A stretch of DNA of 64,000 nucleotides from Arthrobacter psychrochitiniphilus (GTDB taxonomy: Bacteria > Actinomycetota > Actinomycetes > Actinomycetales > Micrococcaceae). Positions 33,408 through 40,596 of this stretch are shown piece after piece. The translations under genes and the position numbers were made by a program. The DNA is taken from positions 248,001 to 312,000 of the forward strand of contig NZ_QHLZ01000004.1 in NCBI RefSeq assembly GCF_003185915.1. The letters run 5' to 3'. The notes under the pieces are model-generated. The model was not told the origin of the DNA. It ran no database searches and saw only the letters and a program-made list of their open reading frames with translations. Position 1 is the first letter of the stretch. Each line of letters opens with the position of its first letter.

Positions 33408-34175
33408 TTAGTTTCGGACCATGGACAGCTTCCACAATTCCGGACCGTTCTCCACGTAGGTGACGTCAAACTTACCGGCCGAGCGCTGTTCCAGTTGGGC
33501 TAGTAGCGGCAGCGGGTTGTGATTGGCGATCAGCAGAATGCCTTTTCCTGGGTTCAGTCCCTCCAACGCGCCGAAAATGGTGGCGTGGCGGATGGCGTGG
33601 GGGATGACGCGCGTATCCAGCTCTGACAGGCCTGGCTCGTCGTGCCCGCCGCAGGCACACCCGCCCAACGCCGGCGCCTGGCTCGGCAGCGCTGTCCCGG
33701 CGGTGCGTGCCGGGAGGATTGCCGCGAGTGAGAGCGTTGGTTCCTGCGCCAGAGCCGGCAGCAACAGCTCATTGGCCTGGTTTAGGAACGCAGTGGCGGC
33801 TTCTTGTAACCGGCCGTCGGCATGCACCATTTTCAGTGACAATTCTTGAACTTCCAAGCCCTTTGTTGCCTCGATGAGCCGGGCATGGTGCCCAGAAGCC
33901 AAGGCGGCAACCACGTTCAGTGGCCCGGCTTCTTTGTTTGCTGCAAGGAAGGCCCCTGACAGTGCTGCGGCCAAGGGAAGCAGTTCCTGTTCGGCAAATT
34001 CAACCAATGCGCCTTGATCTGCTTCTACCAGAGACGCCCCGGAGGGGTTGGCGGCAGCCGCGAGCAAGTTATTGCTCAACGTCCCTAGGGTGCCGGCGGC
34101 TTCCGCCAGCCGGGTGTGCGCCTCCTCGAGGGCTGCTGCCTCGGTGGCGGATGAGGCAAGGATGAGGTTGTTCAC
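33408..34175 (-). CDS. DUF2249 protein with helical N-terminal domain
   Basis: The 255-residue protein has a helical N-terminal part (about 1-150) whose pattern, including SGHHARLIEATKG, is hemerythrin-like although few metal ligands remain. A Cys-containing hinge (GGCACGGHDEPG) follows, then a C-terminal DUF2249 domain (about 178-255, DTRVIPHAIRHATIFGALEG to VTYVENGPELWKLSMV). DUF2249 is related to TusA/SirA folds and is regularly encoded near denitrification and NO genes. It lies divergent to the SufR-like regulator and next to the nitrite reductase locus. Role unknown; NO or redox sensing is inference. Confidence 0.82.
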   Translation of the reverse strand: MNNLILASSATEAAALEEAHTRLAEAAGTLGTLSNNLLAAAANPSGASLVEADQGALVEFAEQELLPLAAALSGAFLAANKEAGPLNVVAALASGHHARLIEATKGLEVQELSLKMVHADGRLQEAATAFLNQANELLLPALAQEPTLSLAAILPARTAGTALPSQAPALGGCACGGHDEPGLSELDTRVIPHAIRHATIFGALEGLNPGKGILLIANHNPLPLLAQLEQRSAGKFDVTYVENGPELWKLSMVRN

Positions 34176-34250: not shown

Positions 34251-35069
34251 GTGGAAAATAAACTAGCGGTTGCACCACCAAACGGGCCCAGGCAATGCGG
34301 CGGTGAACCAGTAATTCCCATGTCCAAAGCGCGGACCACCGTGCTGGCCCGCTTGCGCCTGCATGATGCCACCTTGAGCGTTGAAGAGCTGTCTGCGGAA
34401 ACGGGCCAGCACCCCAACACTGTGCGCGAGCATCTAGAAGCGCTCGTAGAGACTTCCTATGCAACAAGGACTGCAGCGCCCAAGGTGGGACGCGGCCGGC
34501 CAGCCTGGCAGTACCAGGCCTCCGCTTCGCCGGCCGGGCCTGTTGGTTATGCGGCGCTGGCAGCGGCCCTTGCCAAACACATTGCCCTCCACAGTCACCA
34601 TCCTGCTGCCGAGGGAGAAGCCGCGGGGCGTGCCTGGGCTCAAGCCCTGAAGCCTGCCGGAAATTCGCCAGATAATCTGCCAGAATTCAGCGCCGCTACG
34701 GCTCCTGAGGGCGGAGGCGCCGCGGCTAAAACCATCAGCAAGGCCGCCGCTAAAACGGCGCGGTCAGGTGTCAGTAATGCTCTGGTCGAGGCAGGGTTTG
34801 GTGTCCAGAAAAATCGGGACGCAACGGAGCTGGTGCTGACAACCTGCCCCATTGTGGAGGCCGCCCGGGATAATCCGGAGGTGGTATGTGCCGTACACCT
34901 GGGCCTGGTCAAGGGACTCCTCACAGGTAGTGGACTTGCCGAGAGTGAGGTGGAGTTGTTGCCGTTTTCCGGACTGGGCCGGTGTACTCTGCACCTCCCG
35001 CTGGGTGCCGCGGCTGGCACACAAGCAACAGGTAAAGAAACAACAGCTCACGCAGCCGGAACTCCATGA
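34251..35069 (+). CDS. SufR-like helix-turn-helix regulator with conserved cysteines
   Basis: The 272-residue protein starts at GTG 34251, possibly leaderless; ATG 34320 (MSKARTTVLARLRLH) is an alternative. It has a winged helix-turn-helix (LSVEELSAETGQHPNTVREH, about residues 41-60) and a C-terminal domain. Cys199, Cys213 and Cys245 lie in TTCPIVEAARDNPEVVCAVH and GLGRCTLHL. This arrangement resembles SufR-type repressors that hold an iron-sulfur cluster. Its ATGA overlap with the next gene and its place in front of the nitrite reductase suggest it senses NO, nitrite or oxygen through a cluster and controls the locus; this is inference. A low-complexity Ala/Lys segment (about 150-180) is unusual. 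Confidence 0.8.
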   Translation: MENKLAVAPPNGPRQCGGEPVIPMSKARTTVLARLRLHDATLSVEELSAETGQHPNTVREHLEALVETSYATRTAAPKVGRGRPAWQYQASASPAGPVGYAALAAALAKHIALHSHHPAAEGEAAGRAWAQALKPAGNSPDNLPEFSAATAPEGGGAAAKTISKAAAKTARSGVSNALVEAGFGVQKNRDATELVLTTCPIVEAARDNPEVVCAVHLGLVKGLLTGSGLAESEVELLPFSGLGRCTLHLPLGAAAGTQATGKETTAHAAGTP

Positions 35070-36208
35070 AATCCACCGCCGCCGTTGGAACAAGCGCAAA
35101 AGCTGCACCGAAACGCAAAATCAGTGTGCTGCGCAGACCCGTTTTCCGGATGTTGGTCCTGTTGCCGGCCGGGGTGGTCCTGATGATTGGGTTGAACGCT
35201 GGTCTGCAGCTTCTGGGTACGGATGCGCCGCTGAAAGTGGACCGCTTCCCACAAGTCCACGGCATGGCGTTGGTCCTCAGCTTTGTGGGCACAGTCATTG
35301 CCCTTGAACGTTCGGTGGCCCTGAATAAGGCGTTGGGCTACGTCTCCCCGGCACTGCTGGGAATCGCCGGGCTGCTACTGATTTCCCCGCTGGAGCTGTG
35401 GATTGGTAAGACTGTTTTGCTGGCCGGGACCATCGCCATGACTCTGGTCTACCTCCCATTGTGGCGCCGTCAGTATGAGAACGTGGTGCTCATTCAGATA
35501 CTGGGTGCCATCAGCGCCATTGCCGCAGCAGCCCTCTGGTTGCGGATCCCCAGCATCCCGGCGCTGTTGCCCTTTCTGATCACCTTTGTTGTTCTGACCA
35601 TTGCGGGGGGACGCCTGGAACTGGCACGGATCGGCATCCGCAGCCCTCACGCCGAGCCACTCCTGCTGGCCAACTCCTTGGCCCTGCTCGGCGCCACCTG
35701 CGCAACACTGCTGTGGCCCGCCGTGGGCTACGCGCTCTACGGCGTTCTGCTCCTGAGCCTCGTCGCCTGGCTGACCGGGTACGACGCCGCCCGCAAAACC
35801 ATCCGCGGTGTGGGGCTGCCGCGCTACATTGGCGCGTGCCTTCTGGCGGGTTATGGCTGGTTGGCTGTGGCCGGCGTGGTGCTTGCCCTGCAGGAGGGGC
35901 CACTGACCGGCGCCTCCTACGACGTCGCCATCCACGCCGTCTTCCTTGGTTTTACGATCTCCATGATCATGGCGCACGCACCCGTGATCCTGCCCGCCGT
36001 GCTGCGCAAACCACTGCCGTACACGCCCGGCTTCTGGTTGCCGGCGGCCCTGTTGCACCTGTCCCTGATCATCCGCTTGGGAATGGGCGACGGCGCGGGG
36101 AACCACGGCGCGTGGGTCACCGGCGGCGTCCTGAACGTCATCTGCATCCTGTTGTTTGCCGTCATGGCCATCTGGCAGTCCACCCATGCAAAGAAGGTAA
36201 CAGCGTGA
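35066..36208 (+). CDS. NnrS-like polytopic membrane protein
   Basis: The 380-residue protein has about ten to twelve membrane helices. Histidines are placed as in NnrS-family proteins: VDRFPQVHGMALVLSFVGT, AIHAVFLGFTISMIMAHAPV and LLHLSLIIRLGMGD. NnrS is a heme- and copper-containing membrane protein linked to NO stress in denitrifiers. The ATG overlaps the regulator stop and its own stop overlaps the GTG of the nitrite reductase gene. Similarity is by pattern only, so I call it NnrS-like. Confidence 0.72.
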   Translation: MKSTAAVGTSAKAAPKRKISVLRRPVFRMLVLLPAGVVLMIGLNAGLQLLGTDAPLKVDRFPQVHGMALVLSFVGTVIALERSVALNKALGYVSPALLGIAGLLLISPLELWIGKTVLLAGTIAMTLVYLPLWRRQYENVVLIQILGAISAIAAAALWLRIPSIPALLPFLITFVVLTIAGGRLELARIGIRSPHAEPLLLANSLALLGATCATLLWPAVGYALYGVLLLSLVAWLTGYDAARKTIRGVGLPRYIGACLLAGYGWLAVAGVVLALQEGPLTGASYDVAIHAVFLGFTISMIMAHAPVILPAVLRKPLPYTPGFWLPAALLHLSLIIRLGMGDGAGNHGAWVTGGVLNVICILLFAVMAIWQSTHAKKVTA

Positions 36209-38928
36209 GAATCGGCTCCGCACCCGCAGCCTCCGGTAACTTGGCGGCCAAGCCGTCCATGGACAGATCCCGCTGGCATCTGCGAGCCAATGCGCCGGCC
36301 GTTCTGTGGCTCGTGGTCCTGGTGGTGGTGGTTCTTTTCCACCGCAACATTCCTGTCTCCAGCTGGCTCATGGTGCACTTGCTGTTACTTGGCGCAGTGA
36401 CGAACTCGATCCTGGTGTGGAGCTGGCACTTCGCCCAAGCGTTGTTGCGCGGACCCACGCCCAATAACCGTGCCATGGTGGCCCGGCTGGTCGCTTTGAA
36501 CATCTCCATTGTGGTGGTGGTTGTGTCCATGGTGGCCAATATCTGGCTGCTGACGCTCCTTGGCAGTATTGGTGTTGGGCTGGCGGTGGCGTGGCATGCA
36601 CTGGTTCTGGGTATCCGCGCCCACAAAGCCTTACCGTCCCGCTTTGGGCCTACCGTTTGGTACTACGTTGCCGGGTGCCTGCTGCTTCCCGTGGGTGCAG
36701 GGGTGGGGGCTGCGCTCGCCGCCGGTCTCACAGGTGAAGCGCATGTGCGGTTGCTTTTGGTTCATATGAGCGTGAATATTTTGGGGTTTGTGGGGCTGGC
36801 CGTGCTGGGGACGTTGATGACGTTGCTGCCCACCATGCTGCGCACCAGAGTGGCCGACGGCGCTGAGGCAGTAGCGCGGCGAGGTGTTGTTCCGCTGTTG
36901 GCCGGGGTGCTTTTGACCGCAGCCGGTGCCGGGGCGGGGGTGCTGTTCCTGTGTTCCGTGGGGCTGCTCGTTTATCTTGGCGGGGTGGCATATATTTTGT
37001 GGCCGCTGGCCAAGGTTGTACGGGCTAAGCCACCCACCACGTTCGCTCCGCTTTCTGCCATTGCAGCCCTGCTGTGGTTGCTGGTGGGGCTGATTTGGCT
37101 TGTGGCGCTGACGTTCACCAGCAGCGGGTGGGAGAGCCTGCACCACGGAATTGATGCTGTTGTGCCGGTACTGGCCGCCGGATTTGTGGCACAGGTGCTG
37201 GGCTCCGCGTTGACCTACTTGATGCCCGTGGTGTTGGGCGGCGGCCCGGCAGCTCTCAAACGCAGAACAGCGGTGCTCAATCAAGCTGGTTGGTTCAGGG
37301 TGGCACTGACTAATGCTGCACTGGTGGTGTCGCTGCTGCCCGTGCCCAGTCTTGTACGGGTAGGCACCTCCGTGCTGGTCCTGGTGGGGTTGGCCTGGTT
37401 CCTGCCGCTCTTGGCGATGGCAGTACCCAAAAAATCTTCGGACGCTGTGCGGGCGCCAAGAGCGCCAGCGGCTGAAACAGAGCCCGGCGCCAAGGCTCCG
37501 TCCACGGCCCCTGCGAGTGCGGGGTATGACCCCGCCCCGCGCAGGAGGTTGGGACAGGCCGCGGCCGCGCTTGCCGTGGTGGTACTTGTTATTGTGGCGG
37601 GAATTCTTGCCGATCCACAGGCACTGCCAGGGGTCACAGGCGCGAATACCGGGCAAACAGCTCTCACGGCCACCGGTGAAACAACCACGGTGGAGATGAG
37701 TATGAAAAACATGCGGTTCAGCCCCGAAAGCATCGAGGTCCCGGTAGGCAACAAGCTGGTGATCAACCTGGTCAACAATGATGACATGGTCCATGACCTG
37801 GTGACCGCCATTGGCAAAGATTCCGGGCGTCTTTATCCCGGGCAGAAGACTACGGTGGACGTGGGTGTCATTGGCGCTGATATTGCAGGCTGGTGCAGTG
37901 TTGCCGGGCATAAACAGCAGGGCATGGTATTTAGCATTGTGGCCACGGGTGTTGCGCCCGCTGCGCCAGCCACCCCCGGCGACGGGATGGACATGCCCGG
38001 GATGGATCATGGGCCGGCCGGGCCGCCCGCCGTGTTCGATTTCATGAAAGAACCGGCTGCCGGATTCACCGCGCACAGCGCCGTGCTGCCACCGCTTCCT
38101 GCCACGGCGCAGGGGAGCGAACCCGCCGGGACCGTGCATGAGCTGACCATGAAGGTGACAGAGGAGGAACGCGAGGTATCCCCTGGCGTCACCCAAAAAC
38201 TGTGGCTATTCAATGGCACAGCCCCCGGGCCTGTGCTGCACGGCAAGGTGGGCGACACGTTCAAGATCACCCTCGTCAATGACGGCTCCATGGGGCACTC
38301 CATTGACTTCCACGCCGGTGCCCTAGCCCCCGATAAACCCATGCGCACCATCAACCCGGGGGAATCGCTGAGCTACAACTTCACGGCCACGCGCGCCGGA
38401 ATTTGGATGTATCACTGCAGCACCATGCCCATGAGCCAACACATCGCCAATGGCATGTTCGGCGCCGTGGTCATTGACCCGCCCAACCTGAAACCGGTGG
38501 ACAAGGAATACGTCCTGGTGCAGTCCGAGATTTACGCGGGGCCGCAGGGCGGGGTGGCGGACTTGGCCAAGATCCAGGCCGATGACCCGGACGCCGTGGT
38601 GTTCAACGGCTACGCCAACCAGTACAAGTTCAGCCCACTGCCGGCAAAGGTGGGCGAGAGGGTGCGGATCTGGCTGCTCGACGCCGGACCTAGCCGAGCG
38701 AGCTCGTTCCATGTGGTGGGTGGCCAGTTCGATACCGTGTGGAGTGAGGGGCGGTACCTGCTGGACGGGACCGACCCGGCTGCGGGTGCTCAGGTGCTGC
38801 CGCTGGCCGCAGCTCAGGGCGGGTTCGTGGAGCTGGAATTCCCCGAGGCTGGCAATTACCCGTTCGTCTCACACAGCATGGTCGACGCCGAACGCGGCGC
38901 CGCCGGGGTGTTCCACGTGGAGAAATAG
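36205..38928 (+). CDS. nirK: copper nitrite reductase fused to membrane and cupredoxin domains
   Basis: I place the start at GTG 36205, overlapping the preceding stop (GTGA); the longer frame lies inside the upstream gene. The 907-residue protein has three parts. Residues about 25-405 hold roughly ten membrane helices, with another near 450. Residues about 490-582 form a type-1 copper cupredoxin with ligands His530, Cys564, His569 and Met574. Residues about 638-907 form a two-domain NirK. Its ligands are all present: type-1 His698, Cys738, His746, Met751; type-2 His703, His737, His890; catalytic Asp701 and His836. A Met/His-rich linker (GDGMDMPGMDHG) joins the parts. It should reduce nitrite to NO outside the membrane, with electrons passing through the attached cupredoxin. 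Confidence 0.9.
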   Translation: MRIGSAPAASGNLAAKPSMDRSRWHLRANAPAVLWLVVLVVVVLFHRNIPVSSWLMVHLLLLGAVTNSILVWSWHFAQALLRGPTPNNRAMVARLVALNISIVVVVVSMVANIWLLTLLGSIGVGLAVAWHALVLGIRAHKALPSRFGPTVWYYVAGCLLLPVGAGVGAALAAGLTGEAHVRLLLVHMSVNILGFVGLAVLGTLMTLLPTMLRTRVADGAEAVARRGVVPLLAGVLLTAAGAGAGVLFLCSVGLLVYLGGVAYILWPLAKVVRAKPPTTFAPLSAIAALLWLLVGLIWLVALTFTSSGWESLHHGIDAVVPVLAAGFVAQVLGSALTYLMPVVLGGGPAALKRRTAVLNQAGWFRVALTNAALVVSLLPVPSLVRVGTSVLVLVGLAWFLPLLAMAVPKKSSDAVRAPRAPAAETEPGAKAPSTAPASAGYDPAPRRRLGQAAAALAVVVLVIVAGILADPQALPGVTGANTGQTALTATGETTTVEMSMKNMRFSPESIEVPVGNKLVINLVNNDDMVHDLVTAIGKDSGRLYPGQKTTVDVGVIGADIAGWCSVAGHKQQGMVFSIVATGVAPAAPATPGDGMDMPGMDHGPAGPPAVFDFMKEPAAGFTAHSAVLPPLPATAQGSEPAGTVHELTMKVTEEEREVSPGVTQKLWLFNGTAPGPVLHGKVGDTFKITLVNDGSMGHSIDFHAGALAPDKPMRTINPGESLSYNFTATRAGIWMYHCSTMPMSQHIANGMFGAVVIDPPNLKPVDKEYVLVQSEIYAGPQGGVADLAKIQADDPDAVVFNGYANQYKFSPLPAKVGERVRIWLLDAGPSRASSFHVVGGQFDTVWSEGRYLLDGTDPAAGAQVLPLAAAQGGFVELEFPEAGNYPFVSHSMVDAERGAAGVFHVEK

Positions 38929-38943: not shown

Positions 38944-40596
38944 TCAGGACCCGCCCTCACGTGCGGTTCTACGTGATGCGGCGGCCACAAAGAACGAGCC
39001 CACCAGGCCGATGAACAAGAACATGGCTGCGGCAAGGACCGCAGCGCTCGCAGCCTGGGCGAAACCGGAGGACATCGCCTCCACCGCGGCGGGACCGGCA
39101 GCACCGAGTGGACCATGCGTGCCCAGTTGCGCCAGTTGAGGCACGACGCCGCCCGCTGAGTCACGCAGTTGCCCCGCCAAGGTGCCCACCTGACTTGCGG
39201 GGAGTCCTTGCACCGCTTCGAGGGCCTTGGTGCCGGCGGACACCGCAAAGTGGGCCAGTACAGTGCCCATGATGGCCGAGCCGAGGGCCGCACCGAGCTG
39301 CCGCACGGTGCTTTGGGTGGCAGAGCCCTGACCGGAGACGGTCGTGGGGATGTCAGCTAGAACCGTGCCCGTCAACTGTGCCGAGGCCAAGCCAAGGCCC
39401 AACCCGTAAACCACCAGCAGGGCCGCGATCAGCCAGATGGACGTGGTTGAGGTGATGACCAGGGCCAGCACCAGTAGCCCTGCCGTCTCCAGAGCCAAGC
39501 CAATGATGACCACGGTGGGCGGCCCCAAACGGGAGGCCAAGTGGCGGGCGGAGGCACCAGAGAAGAACGCGCCCAGGGCCATGGCTGCCAGGACGAAGCC
39601 GGCGTCGAGGGTCCCCAATCCCAGAATGTTGATCAAGTACAGGGGCAGGATCAGGAGTAGGCCAAATTCTCCGATGGCCACCATAGCCGCCACTGCGTTA
39701 CCCCAGGAAAATGTCCGGACGCGGAACAAGGTCAGGTCCAAGATGGCGGAGCGGCCAACCGTGGCCCGGTGCTTTTCCCACAGTACGAAGCTGATGAGTA
39801 AAACAATGCCTGCGGCCAGGGTCAGCGGTACGGCAGAGATGGTGGCGTCGGCAGGCCAGCTGATCAGGCCAAGTTTCAGGGCACTCTTCGCGGACCACCA
39901 GCCCAGCGTTGGCCCCTCGATCAAGGCGAACACAAACAGTCCAAATCCGGCGGCGCTGAGCAGCAGGCCCAGAATGTCGAAGCCGGCAGCGTCATTGGGG
40001 GAGCGGGTTTCCGGCACGAAGAGCACGGCGCCCACCAGCACGGCAAGGCCCAGGGGGATGTTCACAATGAAGATCCACTGCCAGGCGAAGGAGGAGGTCA
40101 GCCAACCACCCAGCAGCGGGCCTATTGCCGCCATCCCGGAGATGACAGCACCCCAGATGGCAAAAGCCGTGGTCCGGTCCTTGCCGAAAAAGGTGGAATT
40201 GACGCTGGAGAGGGTCGCAGGGAGTACGGCCGCACCACCCACACCCTGCAGGACGCGGCTAAGGATTAACCCGCCGGCGTCGTGGGAGAGTGCGGCGAAA
40301 ATGCTCCCTGCCATGAACAGCACCACGCCAGCCATGAAGAGTTTGCGGCGCCCTATCCGGTCACCCAACCGGCCACTGCTCAGCAGGAGGGCGGCCAGGA
40401 CCACCGAATACAGGCTGTTGACCCATTGCGCTTCATTGAGGTCCAAGTGGAGGTCCGCAATGATGGTGGGCAGCGAAACGCCAACAATCGTGCCGTCAAT
40501 GACAATCATGGACAGCCCGGCGGCCAAGACGCCAAGCCCTGCCCACTTGTTCCGGGAGGTTCCTGTGGAGCCAGCACTTACCTTGAGCTGTTGCAT
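38944..40596 (-). CDS. MFS drug exporter of the EmrB/QacA (DHA2) family
   Basis: The 550-residue protein has about 14 membrane helices and the motif A region GRLGDRIGRRKLFMAGVVLF between helices 2 and 3. It also has the DHA2 start VIDGTIVGVSLPTIIADLHL and motif C-like GPLLGGWLTSSFAWQWIFIV. Such exporters use the proton gradient to expel drugs or dyes. No ribosome binding site is obvious at 40596. A perfect palindrome 34 bases upstream is a probable operator, although no regulator gene adjoins. It lies convergent with the nitrite reductase gene, 15 bases apart. Confidence 0.9.
   Translation of the reverse strand: MQQLKVSAGSTGTSRNKWAGLGVLAAGLSMIVIDGTIVGVSLPTIIADLHLDLNEAQWVNSLYSVVLAALLLSSGRLGDRIGRRKLFMAGVVLFMAGSIFAALSHDAGGLILSRVLQGVGGAAVLPATLSSVNSTFFGKDRTTAFAIWGAVISGMAAIGPLLGGWLTSSFAWQWIFIVNIPLGLAVLVGAVLFVPETRSPNDAAGFDILGLLLSAAGFGLFVFALIEGPTLGWWSAKSALKLGLISWPADATISAVPLTLAAGIVLLISFVLWEKHRATVGRSAILDLTLFRVRTFSWGNAVAAMVAIGEFGLLLILPLYLINILGLGTLDAGFVLAAMALGAFFSGASARHLASRLGPPTVVIIGLALETAGLLVLALVITSTTSIWLIAALLVVYGLGLGLASAQLTGTVLADIPTTVSGQGSATQSTVRQLGAALGSAIMGTVLAHFAVSAGTKALEAVQGLPASQVGTLAGQLRDSAGGVVPQLAQLGTHGPLGAAGPAAVEAMSSGFAQAASAAVLAAAMFLFIGLVGSFFVAAASRRTAREGGS

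Follow-up and report, generated by a model that had tools for sequence, protein, structure and literature searches.

The locus and the fused gene

The gene considered here lies in a window of 64,000 nucleotides from Arthrobacter psychrochitiniphilus (contig NZ_QHLZ01000004.1, positions 248,001 to 312,000; coordinates below are those of the window). A single open reading frame (ORF) on the forward strand, at 36205-38928, encodes a protein of 907 residues in which a membrane domain with a predicted oxidase fold, an anchor helix, a cupredoxin and a domain of the copper nitrite reductase type (NirK) follow one another in one chain. A first-pass annotation of the window had given the gene these coordinates and this length, and its description of one ORF with a membrane part, a cupredoxin and NirK is confirmed by the reading frame, by Pfam and NCBIfam matches and by a structure model. 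The GTG start at 36205 overlaps the stop codon of the preceding gene, and a likely ribosome-binding site, AAGAAGG, can be read in the printed sequence at 36191-36197 on the same strand.

The membrane domain occupies residues 20-410 (36262-37434) and is predicted to have 12 helices. A 13th helix at residues 445-469 (37537-37611; helix 426-450 of the model, its membrane topology being inferred) leads to the cupredoxin, which extends from about residue 485 to about residue 590 (37657-37974, with approximate ends), and NirK takes up roughly residues 620-907 (38062-38925). The first-pass annotation had counted about ten membrane helices, a figure that the predicted model revises to about 12 plus the 13th. 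Family searches recovered Cupredoxin_1 at residues 489-553 (Pfam/NCBIfam), Cu-oxidase_3 at 651-761 (Pfam) and TIGR02376 at 637-906 (NCBIfam), and the residues before 455 gave no match in Pfam or NCBIfam.

Copper sites and spread of the fusion

Conservation of individual residues was counted in 79 non-redundant relatives (<90% identity). The type-1 copper ligands of the cupredoxin (H530, C564, H569, M574) and residues H698, D701, H703, H737, C738, H746 and H836 of the NirK domain are present in all 79, H890 is present in 78 (with one gap), and M751 is present in 73 and replaced by Leu in the other six. The copper and catalytic residues listed in the first-pass annotation were therefore right. 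The NirK feature set is present, with a type-1 copper site of two His, a Cys and a Met, a type-2 site of three His, and the catalytic Asp and His. The best PDB matches of the C-terminal part are nitrite reductases, headed by 3wi9 (E 2e-49), and on alignment to 3wi9 the named residues sit on the corresponding motifs. Since TIGR02376, at 163.9 bits, stays under its equivalog cut-off of 296.3, which is a curated score and not a mechanistic feature, the domain is named NirK-type from its residues and its PDB matches, and it is predicted to reduce nitrite to nitric oxide (NO). Likewise supported is the view that the chain has its own donor-like cupredoxin and membrane platform built in.

A scan covering 84,980 species yielded 507 pattern matches in their genomes; relatives are encoded by 453 of these, so that a chance ORF can be ruled out. 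The loci named here are the best 80 of these 453 related stretches, which makes them a biased sample for the frequency of the fusion, and all 80 hold it at full length in a single frame. The genera include Arthrobacter, Sinomonas, Oerskovia, Nocardioides, Rhodococcus, Mycolicibacterium, Streptomyces, Microbacterium and Cryobacterium, and within the host's own family the membrane domain was found in 56 of 197 sampled genomes. To the question of the first-pass annotation, how widely the full fusion occurs among actinobacteria, these sequences answer that the architecture is common and widespread there. The same annotation had held that transcripts yielding the NirK part alone would refute its reading. 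The whole fusion is kept in one open frame at 80 of 80 loci, but an internal start is possible, as ATG 498, ATG 500 and TTG 449 are preceded by weak Shine-Dalgarno-like sequences.

A few loci are unusual. Two titled Sporosarcina and Bacillus (L034 and L070) hold typical actinobacterial fusions, with 75% and 51% identity respectively, and are probably misnamed or contaminated. In L169 (6635-8862) the fusion is split into two frames after the cupredoxin, by an assembly error or as a pseudogene, and L168 (7908-9380), from a genome of the same family, has a membrane domain followed by the anchor helix but neither cupredoxin nor NirK, and its 17-kb region gave no NirK match.

The fold of the membrane domain

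AlphaFold2 produced a confident model of residues 20-475 (70 homologs; pLDDT 93.2, pTM 0.91), with 12 helices and the 13th running toward the cupredoxin. When the model was compared with the PDB by Foldseek, CcoN of the cbb3 oxidase came out on top (E 2.7e-4), and further heme-copper oxidases and NO reductase ranked next. VIA-align superposed the domain on CcoN (8smr_E) with a Z score of 30.7 over 381 residues at 3.4 A and on NO reductase (4xyd) with a Z score of 28.9, values that far exceed the level stated by the tool for unrelated helical bundles, at sequence identities of 11-14%. The model thus makes a strong case for a heme-copper-oxidase subunit I fold. Because neither Pfam nor NCBIfam has a family for the domain, and a search of the PDB with its profile (hmmsearch) brought up nothing better than a chance match (E 1.8), this assignment is drawn from structure prediction.

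Structure prediction and profile comparison of the membrane part, both proposed in the first-pass annotation, differed in what they returned, the former giving the oxidase fold and the latter modest links. In a comparison of helices 1-4 with helices 5-8 the motifs around H58 and H187 align with each other (P 6.4e-5), and the stretches of the oxidase profile that supply heme ligands, helices I-III (P 4.4e-4) and IX-X (P 1.4e-3), are matched by helices 5-8 of the domain. The oxidase fold might be circularly permuted, a possibility on which the internal pseudo-symmetry allows no decision here.

Two invariant histidines

Within the membrane domain, H58 (helix 2, codon 36376-36378) and H187 (helix 6, codon 36763-36765), the proposed heme ligands, are found in 79 of 79 relatives, H46 in 78 and H131 in 77. 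Among 25 distant sequences, made up of 23 without a NirK fusion together with L168 and L169, H58 and H187 are again present in every one, H46 and H131 are mostly lost, and Y154, G326 and Q330 occur in 24 each; the two histidines are invariant in sequences as low as about 27% identity. The six-histidine ligand set of the oxidases (one on helix II, one on VI, two on VII and two on X), found in 40-41 of the 41 true oxidases and NO reductases aligned, is missing from the fused domain, where only H58 and H187 are invariant. The loss of the ligands on helices VII and X rules out that the fused domain acts as an NO reductase.

The first-pass annotation had suggested that the membrane part might hold a cofactor at the histidines of two motifs. 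The histidine of HMSVNILGF is H187, which is invariant, but those of LHHGIDAV are not conserved (position 313 is a His in 22 of 79 and position 314 in three), and H58 (79 of 79) was not on its list. The cofactor idea itself has nevertheless gained real support, since the membrane part appears to be an oxidase fold with two invariant histidines and not an arbitrary anchor. In oxidases a quasi-threefold axis relates helix II to helices VI and X, and it is between neighbours of this kind that the low-spin heme sits. This symmetry, taken with the profile correspondence of the two motifs, leads to the prediction that H58 and H187 ligate one heme as a bis-histidine pair, and it is likely that these residues hold a single b-heme.

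The membrane domain as a separate gene

In a phylum sample of 396 Actinobacteriota genomes the membrane domain (E 1e-5) was found in 51 and a NirK-type protein (E 1e-20, a threshold that lets in divergent multicopper proteins) in 89. Both occurred in 44 genomes versus about 11 expected, and outside the eight fusion genomes a NirK-type match accompanied the domain in 36 of 43 genomes, where about nine were expected, statistics that ignore shared ancestry. The seven membrane-domain genomes with no NirK-type match are G223, G378, G419, G448, G512, G535 and G573. The separate membrane-domain gene adjoins cupredoxin or NirK genes in eight of the 43 (L159, L166, L171, L189, L190, L195, L203 and L204), a proportion taken over all non-fusion genomes; the 18 and 20 regions inspected were picked by hand, several since their coordinates already showed neighbours. 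In L204 NirK, cupredoxin and membrane domain are three consecutive frames, apparently the parts of the fusion. In L171 and L203 the NirK gene and the separate membrane-domain gene have stop-to-stop frames that share part of the DNA.

Relatives also occur in rhizobia, where a 450-residue membrane protein of the denitrification islands (pSymA, L115:23235-24590, reverse strand) matches the membrane domain by profile in register (P 5e-5). The first rhizobial profile matches were shifted by four helices (P 4e-4; P 7.8e-5), and with a wider alignment the in-register match is the best and the shifted one second (P 2.9e-4). The rhizobial protein has an invariant His on helix 2 and on helix 6 in seven sequences. 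Around the six relatives that were fetched (L148-L153), genes for DUF2249 and metal-sulfur assembly proteins adjoin in all six, NnrS is near in five, nirK is present in four (L148, L149, L152, L153) and nos genes are present in two (L150, L151), with L150 also carrying pseudoazurin.

The partner gene, neighbouring genes and host genome

The preceding gene (35066-36208, forward strand), which overlaps the start of the fusion, encodes a membrane protein of 380 residues with no Pfam match and a predicted oxidase subunit I fold. Its model (pLDDT 94.2) superposes on the oxidase fold with a VIA-align Z score of 28.0 over 350 residues at 3.6 A. Foldseek gave a best oxidase match of E 1.5e-3, and with no match reaching 0.001 the claim of this fold is taken from VIA-align. 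Of the 80 loci, 76 have a homolog of this partner directly upstream and on the same strand, and in 75 of these its end and the aligned start of the fusion are at most about 75 bases apart. H65, H290 and H304, like many charged residues, are invariant in 66 aligned partner sequences. Since a profile comparison of the fused domain with the partner was not significant (prob 2.2%; P 0.029), the kinship of the two is argued from their fold. The operon would accordingly be one that usually holds two oxidase-fold proteins, one fused and one free.

Further upstream lies a helix-turn-helix (HTH) regulator gene (34251-35069, forward strand), with a homolog somewhere in 73 of the 80 loci. Its residues C199, C213, H216 and C245 are invariant in 73 aligned sequences, and it could be an Fe-S or NO sensor, its appearance being that of a repressor responsive to Fe-S or NO. 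A DUF2249 protein at 33408-34175 on the reverse strand, a possible accessory, has homologs in the fetched flanks of 45 of the 80 loci, at varying distance and on either strand. The DHA2-type major facilitator superfamily (MFS) efflux gene that converges on the fusion from the other side (38944-40596, reverse strand) has a homolog in only five of 80 loci and therefore is probably outside the system.

The host genome encodes NarG above the cut-off (1561 bits) and a single COX1-type protein. The only two matches to the cytochrome c family PF13442 fall in one diheme frame of 273 residues on the COX1 contig (PF00034 was not searched). A PF00127 search of the genome gave no match, which carries no weight because the fusion itself matches PF00127, and an NnrS search of the genome likewise carries none, its control genomes having given no signal. 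Among 34 fusion genomes, picked by hand from the 63 with a fused-type domain (56 from the host's family and seven from the phylum sample), a COX1 protein resembling NO reductase was present in five, all of which resemble pSymA NorB, and is absent from the host. With NarG present and such a protein in only five of 34 genomes, nitrite is expected to be turned into NO, usually without an oxidase-type NO reductase.

A possible electron inlet for NirK

The fusion may be a membrane-bound, self-contained copper nitrite reductase, in which a degenerate oxidase fold with one b-heme would pass electrons from menaquinol to the cupredoxin and NirK; the chances of this being right seem to us about even. 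The proposal is built on what was computed, namely domain order, fold, conserved residues, operon partner and separate-gene relatives, and it is favoured because of the oxidase fold, the invariance of H58 and H187, the copper ligands of the cupredoxin (79 of 79) and the co-occurrence and adjacency with NirK, as well as the profile correspondence of the two four-helix units and, in the host genome, NarG and the pair of PF13442 matches confined to one frame. The heme, the topology, the oxidation of quinol and the direction of electron flow are inferred as follows. The N-terminal half would be a degenerate oxidase subunit I that has lost the binuclear centre for reducing oxygen or NO, and H58 and H187, at equivalent positions of neighbouring pseudo-repeats, would clamp one b-type heme much as the low-spin heme of an oxidase is held. 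Menaquinol would give electrons to this heme, either directly or by way of the partner with its similar fold (and its H65 and H290); from the heme they would move to the tethered type-1 copper of the cupredoxin outside the membrane, and pass from there to the type-1 and then the type-2 copper of NirK, where nitrite would become NO. Put more specifically, the membrane half could be a repurposed oxidase subunit which, its catalytic site lost, now works as a menaquinol:cupredoxin oxidoreductase with a single heme between helices 2 and 6, the fused and free domains together forming an electron inlet. This narrower statement is offered tentatively, as somewhat more doubtful than not. The helix 2/6 pair of ordinary oxidases frames a pore without heme.

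Several observations weigh against an electron inlet of this kind. The profile links to oxidases are modest (P 0.003 when the whole membrane domain is used) and the fusion has no Pfam COX1 match; COX1 was matched in one of 70 membrane-domain relatives (E 2.3e-4), and the match within the relative G060, at 24.7 bits against a cut-off of 34.8, was not reproduced by hmmscan. At E 1e-5, 45 of the 89 NirK-type genomes have no membrane-domain match, and 13 of the 18 selected regions show cupredoxin or NirK frames without a membrane-domain frame (three on contigs <10 kb), which means that not all such NirK need the domain. No partner homolog was found in four of the 80 loci or in any of the 38 regions (18 + 20) around divergent, short or separate-gene forms, L168 and L169 with their fusion-type membrane domain among them, by the same profile that finds it in 76 of the 80, and the partner is therefore not obligatory. 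The extra N-terminal cupredoxin of the Hyphomicrobium NirK is described as too far from the core and unneeded for activity (PMC4770552). Finally, the rhizobial family that resembles the membrane domain occurs in hosts with cytochrome or pseudoazurin donors, such as Bradyrhizobium, whose cytochrome CycA is described as a donor to NirK (PMC6710368), and this points to another or a wider role.

Because of these other donors, electron donation is unlikely to be the only role of the family, and the main rival, which assigns NO handling to the oxidase-fold domain and its partner, the heme binding, sensing or buffering what NirK makes and so protecting the cell, gains support. A similar protective role is ascribed to NnrS. 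An NO-handling role would suit the scarcity of NO-reductase-like COX1 proteins in the fusion genomes (five of 34, the host not included), the company kept by the rhizobial family (NnrS in five, nirK in four and DUF2249 in all of six loci) and the HTH regulator with invariant Cys that adjoins the operon. It is, however, hard to see why a sensor should carry a tethered cupredoxin whose copper ligands are intact, and no tie to NnrS emerged, PF05940 matching neither the fusion nor the partner and being listed for none of the 70 membrane-domain members, and the membrane-domain profile not matching the one NnrS sequence compared with it. On balance we regard NO handling as unlikely. Also unlikely, to about the same degree, is a division of labour in which the membrane part relays electrons and quinol is oxidised by the partner or by the bcc complex; the partner variant overlaps the electron-inlet proposal, so that the two are not exclusive. 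The partner, of the same predicted fold, with H65, H290, H304 and many charged residues invariant, is upstream in 76 of 80 loci, and a study of Intrasporangium calvum assumes that electrons reach NirK via bc1 (PMC6349771), but the loci and regions that lack a partner speak against the relay.

Should the membrane part only anchor and position NirK, its oxidase fold would be a cofactor-free relic, which would agree with the absent helix VII and X ligands and with the cupredoxin-NirK genes of other genomes that have no membrane-domain match. Two histidines kept down to about 27% identity, and a domain that persists as a separate protein where it anchors no NirK by fusion, make this quite improbable. 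Least probable by far is a maturation factor that would load NirK or other enzymes with copper or heme. The notion was prompted by the rhizobial relatives, all six of which cluster with genes for DUF2249 and for metal-sulfur assembly, but it is unusual for assembly factors to be fused permanently and one-to-one to an enzyme.

Were the membrane domain a menaquinol:cupredoxin oxidoreductase, electrons would reach the NirK of these bacteria without passing through the bc complex or any soluble carrier, and an oxidase fold would have been turned from a terminal oxidase into an electron donor. A domain listed as of unknown function would, as a quinol-side donor, become testable by two point mutations, and the energetics and control of actinobacterial denitrification would have to be seen differently. 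NirK makes NO, from which N2O is formed, and soil is rich in actinobacteria.

Comparison with known systems

The fusion architecture itself is already known. Helen et al. (2016; PMC4770552) describe, for Propionibacterium acnes and other actinobacteria, a NirK of about 900 residues with the same domain order, in which a 'transmembrane domain of unknown function' of about 400 residues precedes cupredoxin and NirK. Compared with the account given there, the present analysis adds the predicted oxidase fold as an identity for the membrane domain, the two-histidine core, the oxidase-fold partner gene and the separate-gene relatives. A search of titles and abstracts in the open-licence literature found no paper naming the fold or identity of this domain.

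Extra cupredoxins fused to NirK are known from Hyphomicrobium (PMC4770552) and from the NirK-plastocyanin fusions of Halobacteria (PMC11237513), in passages that make no mention of a membrane domain. The Chloroflexi NirK (PMC8756737) likewise has an N-terminal cupredoxin and fused electron-carrier domains, but a cytochrome c domain stands in place of the oxidase-fold domain, and its authors allow for an assembly artifact.

As to the membrane domain, NnrS, which binds heme and copper, is also a membrane protein of denitrification loci but shows no Pfam or profile match to it. The rhizobial 450-residue protein shares with it the in-register profile match, the histidines on helices 2 and 6 and a nearby nirK (four of six), and differs in being free-standing. 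CcoN of the cbb3 oxidase and NorB share the predicted fold with both the fused domain and the partner, but helices VII and X of the fused domain lack an invariant His, and no catalytic centre is to be expected in this domain.

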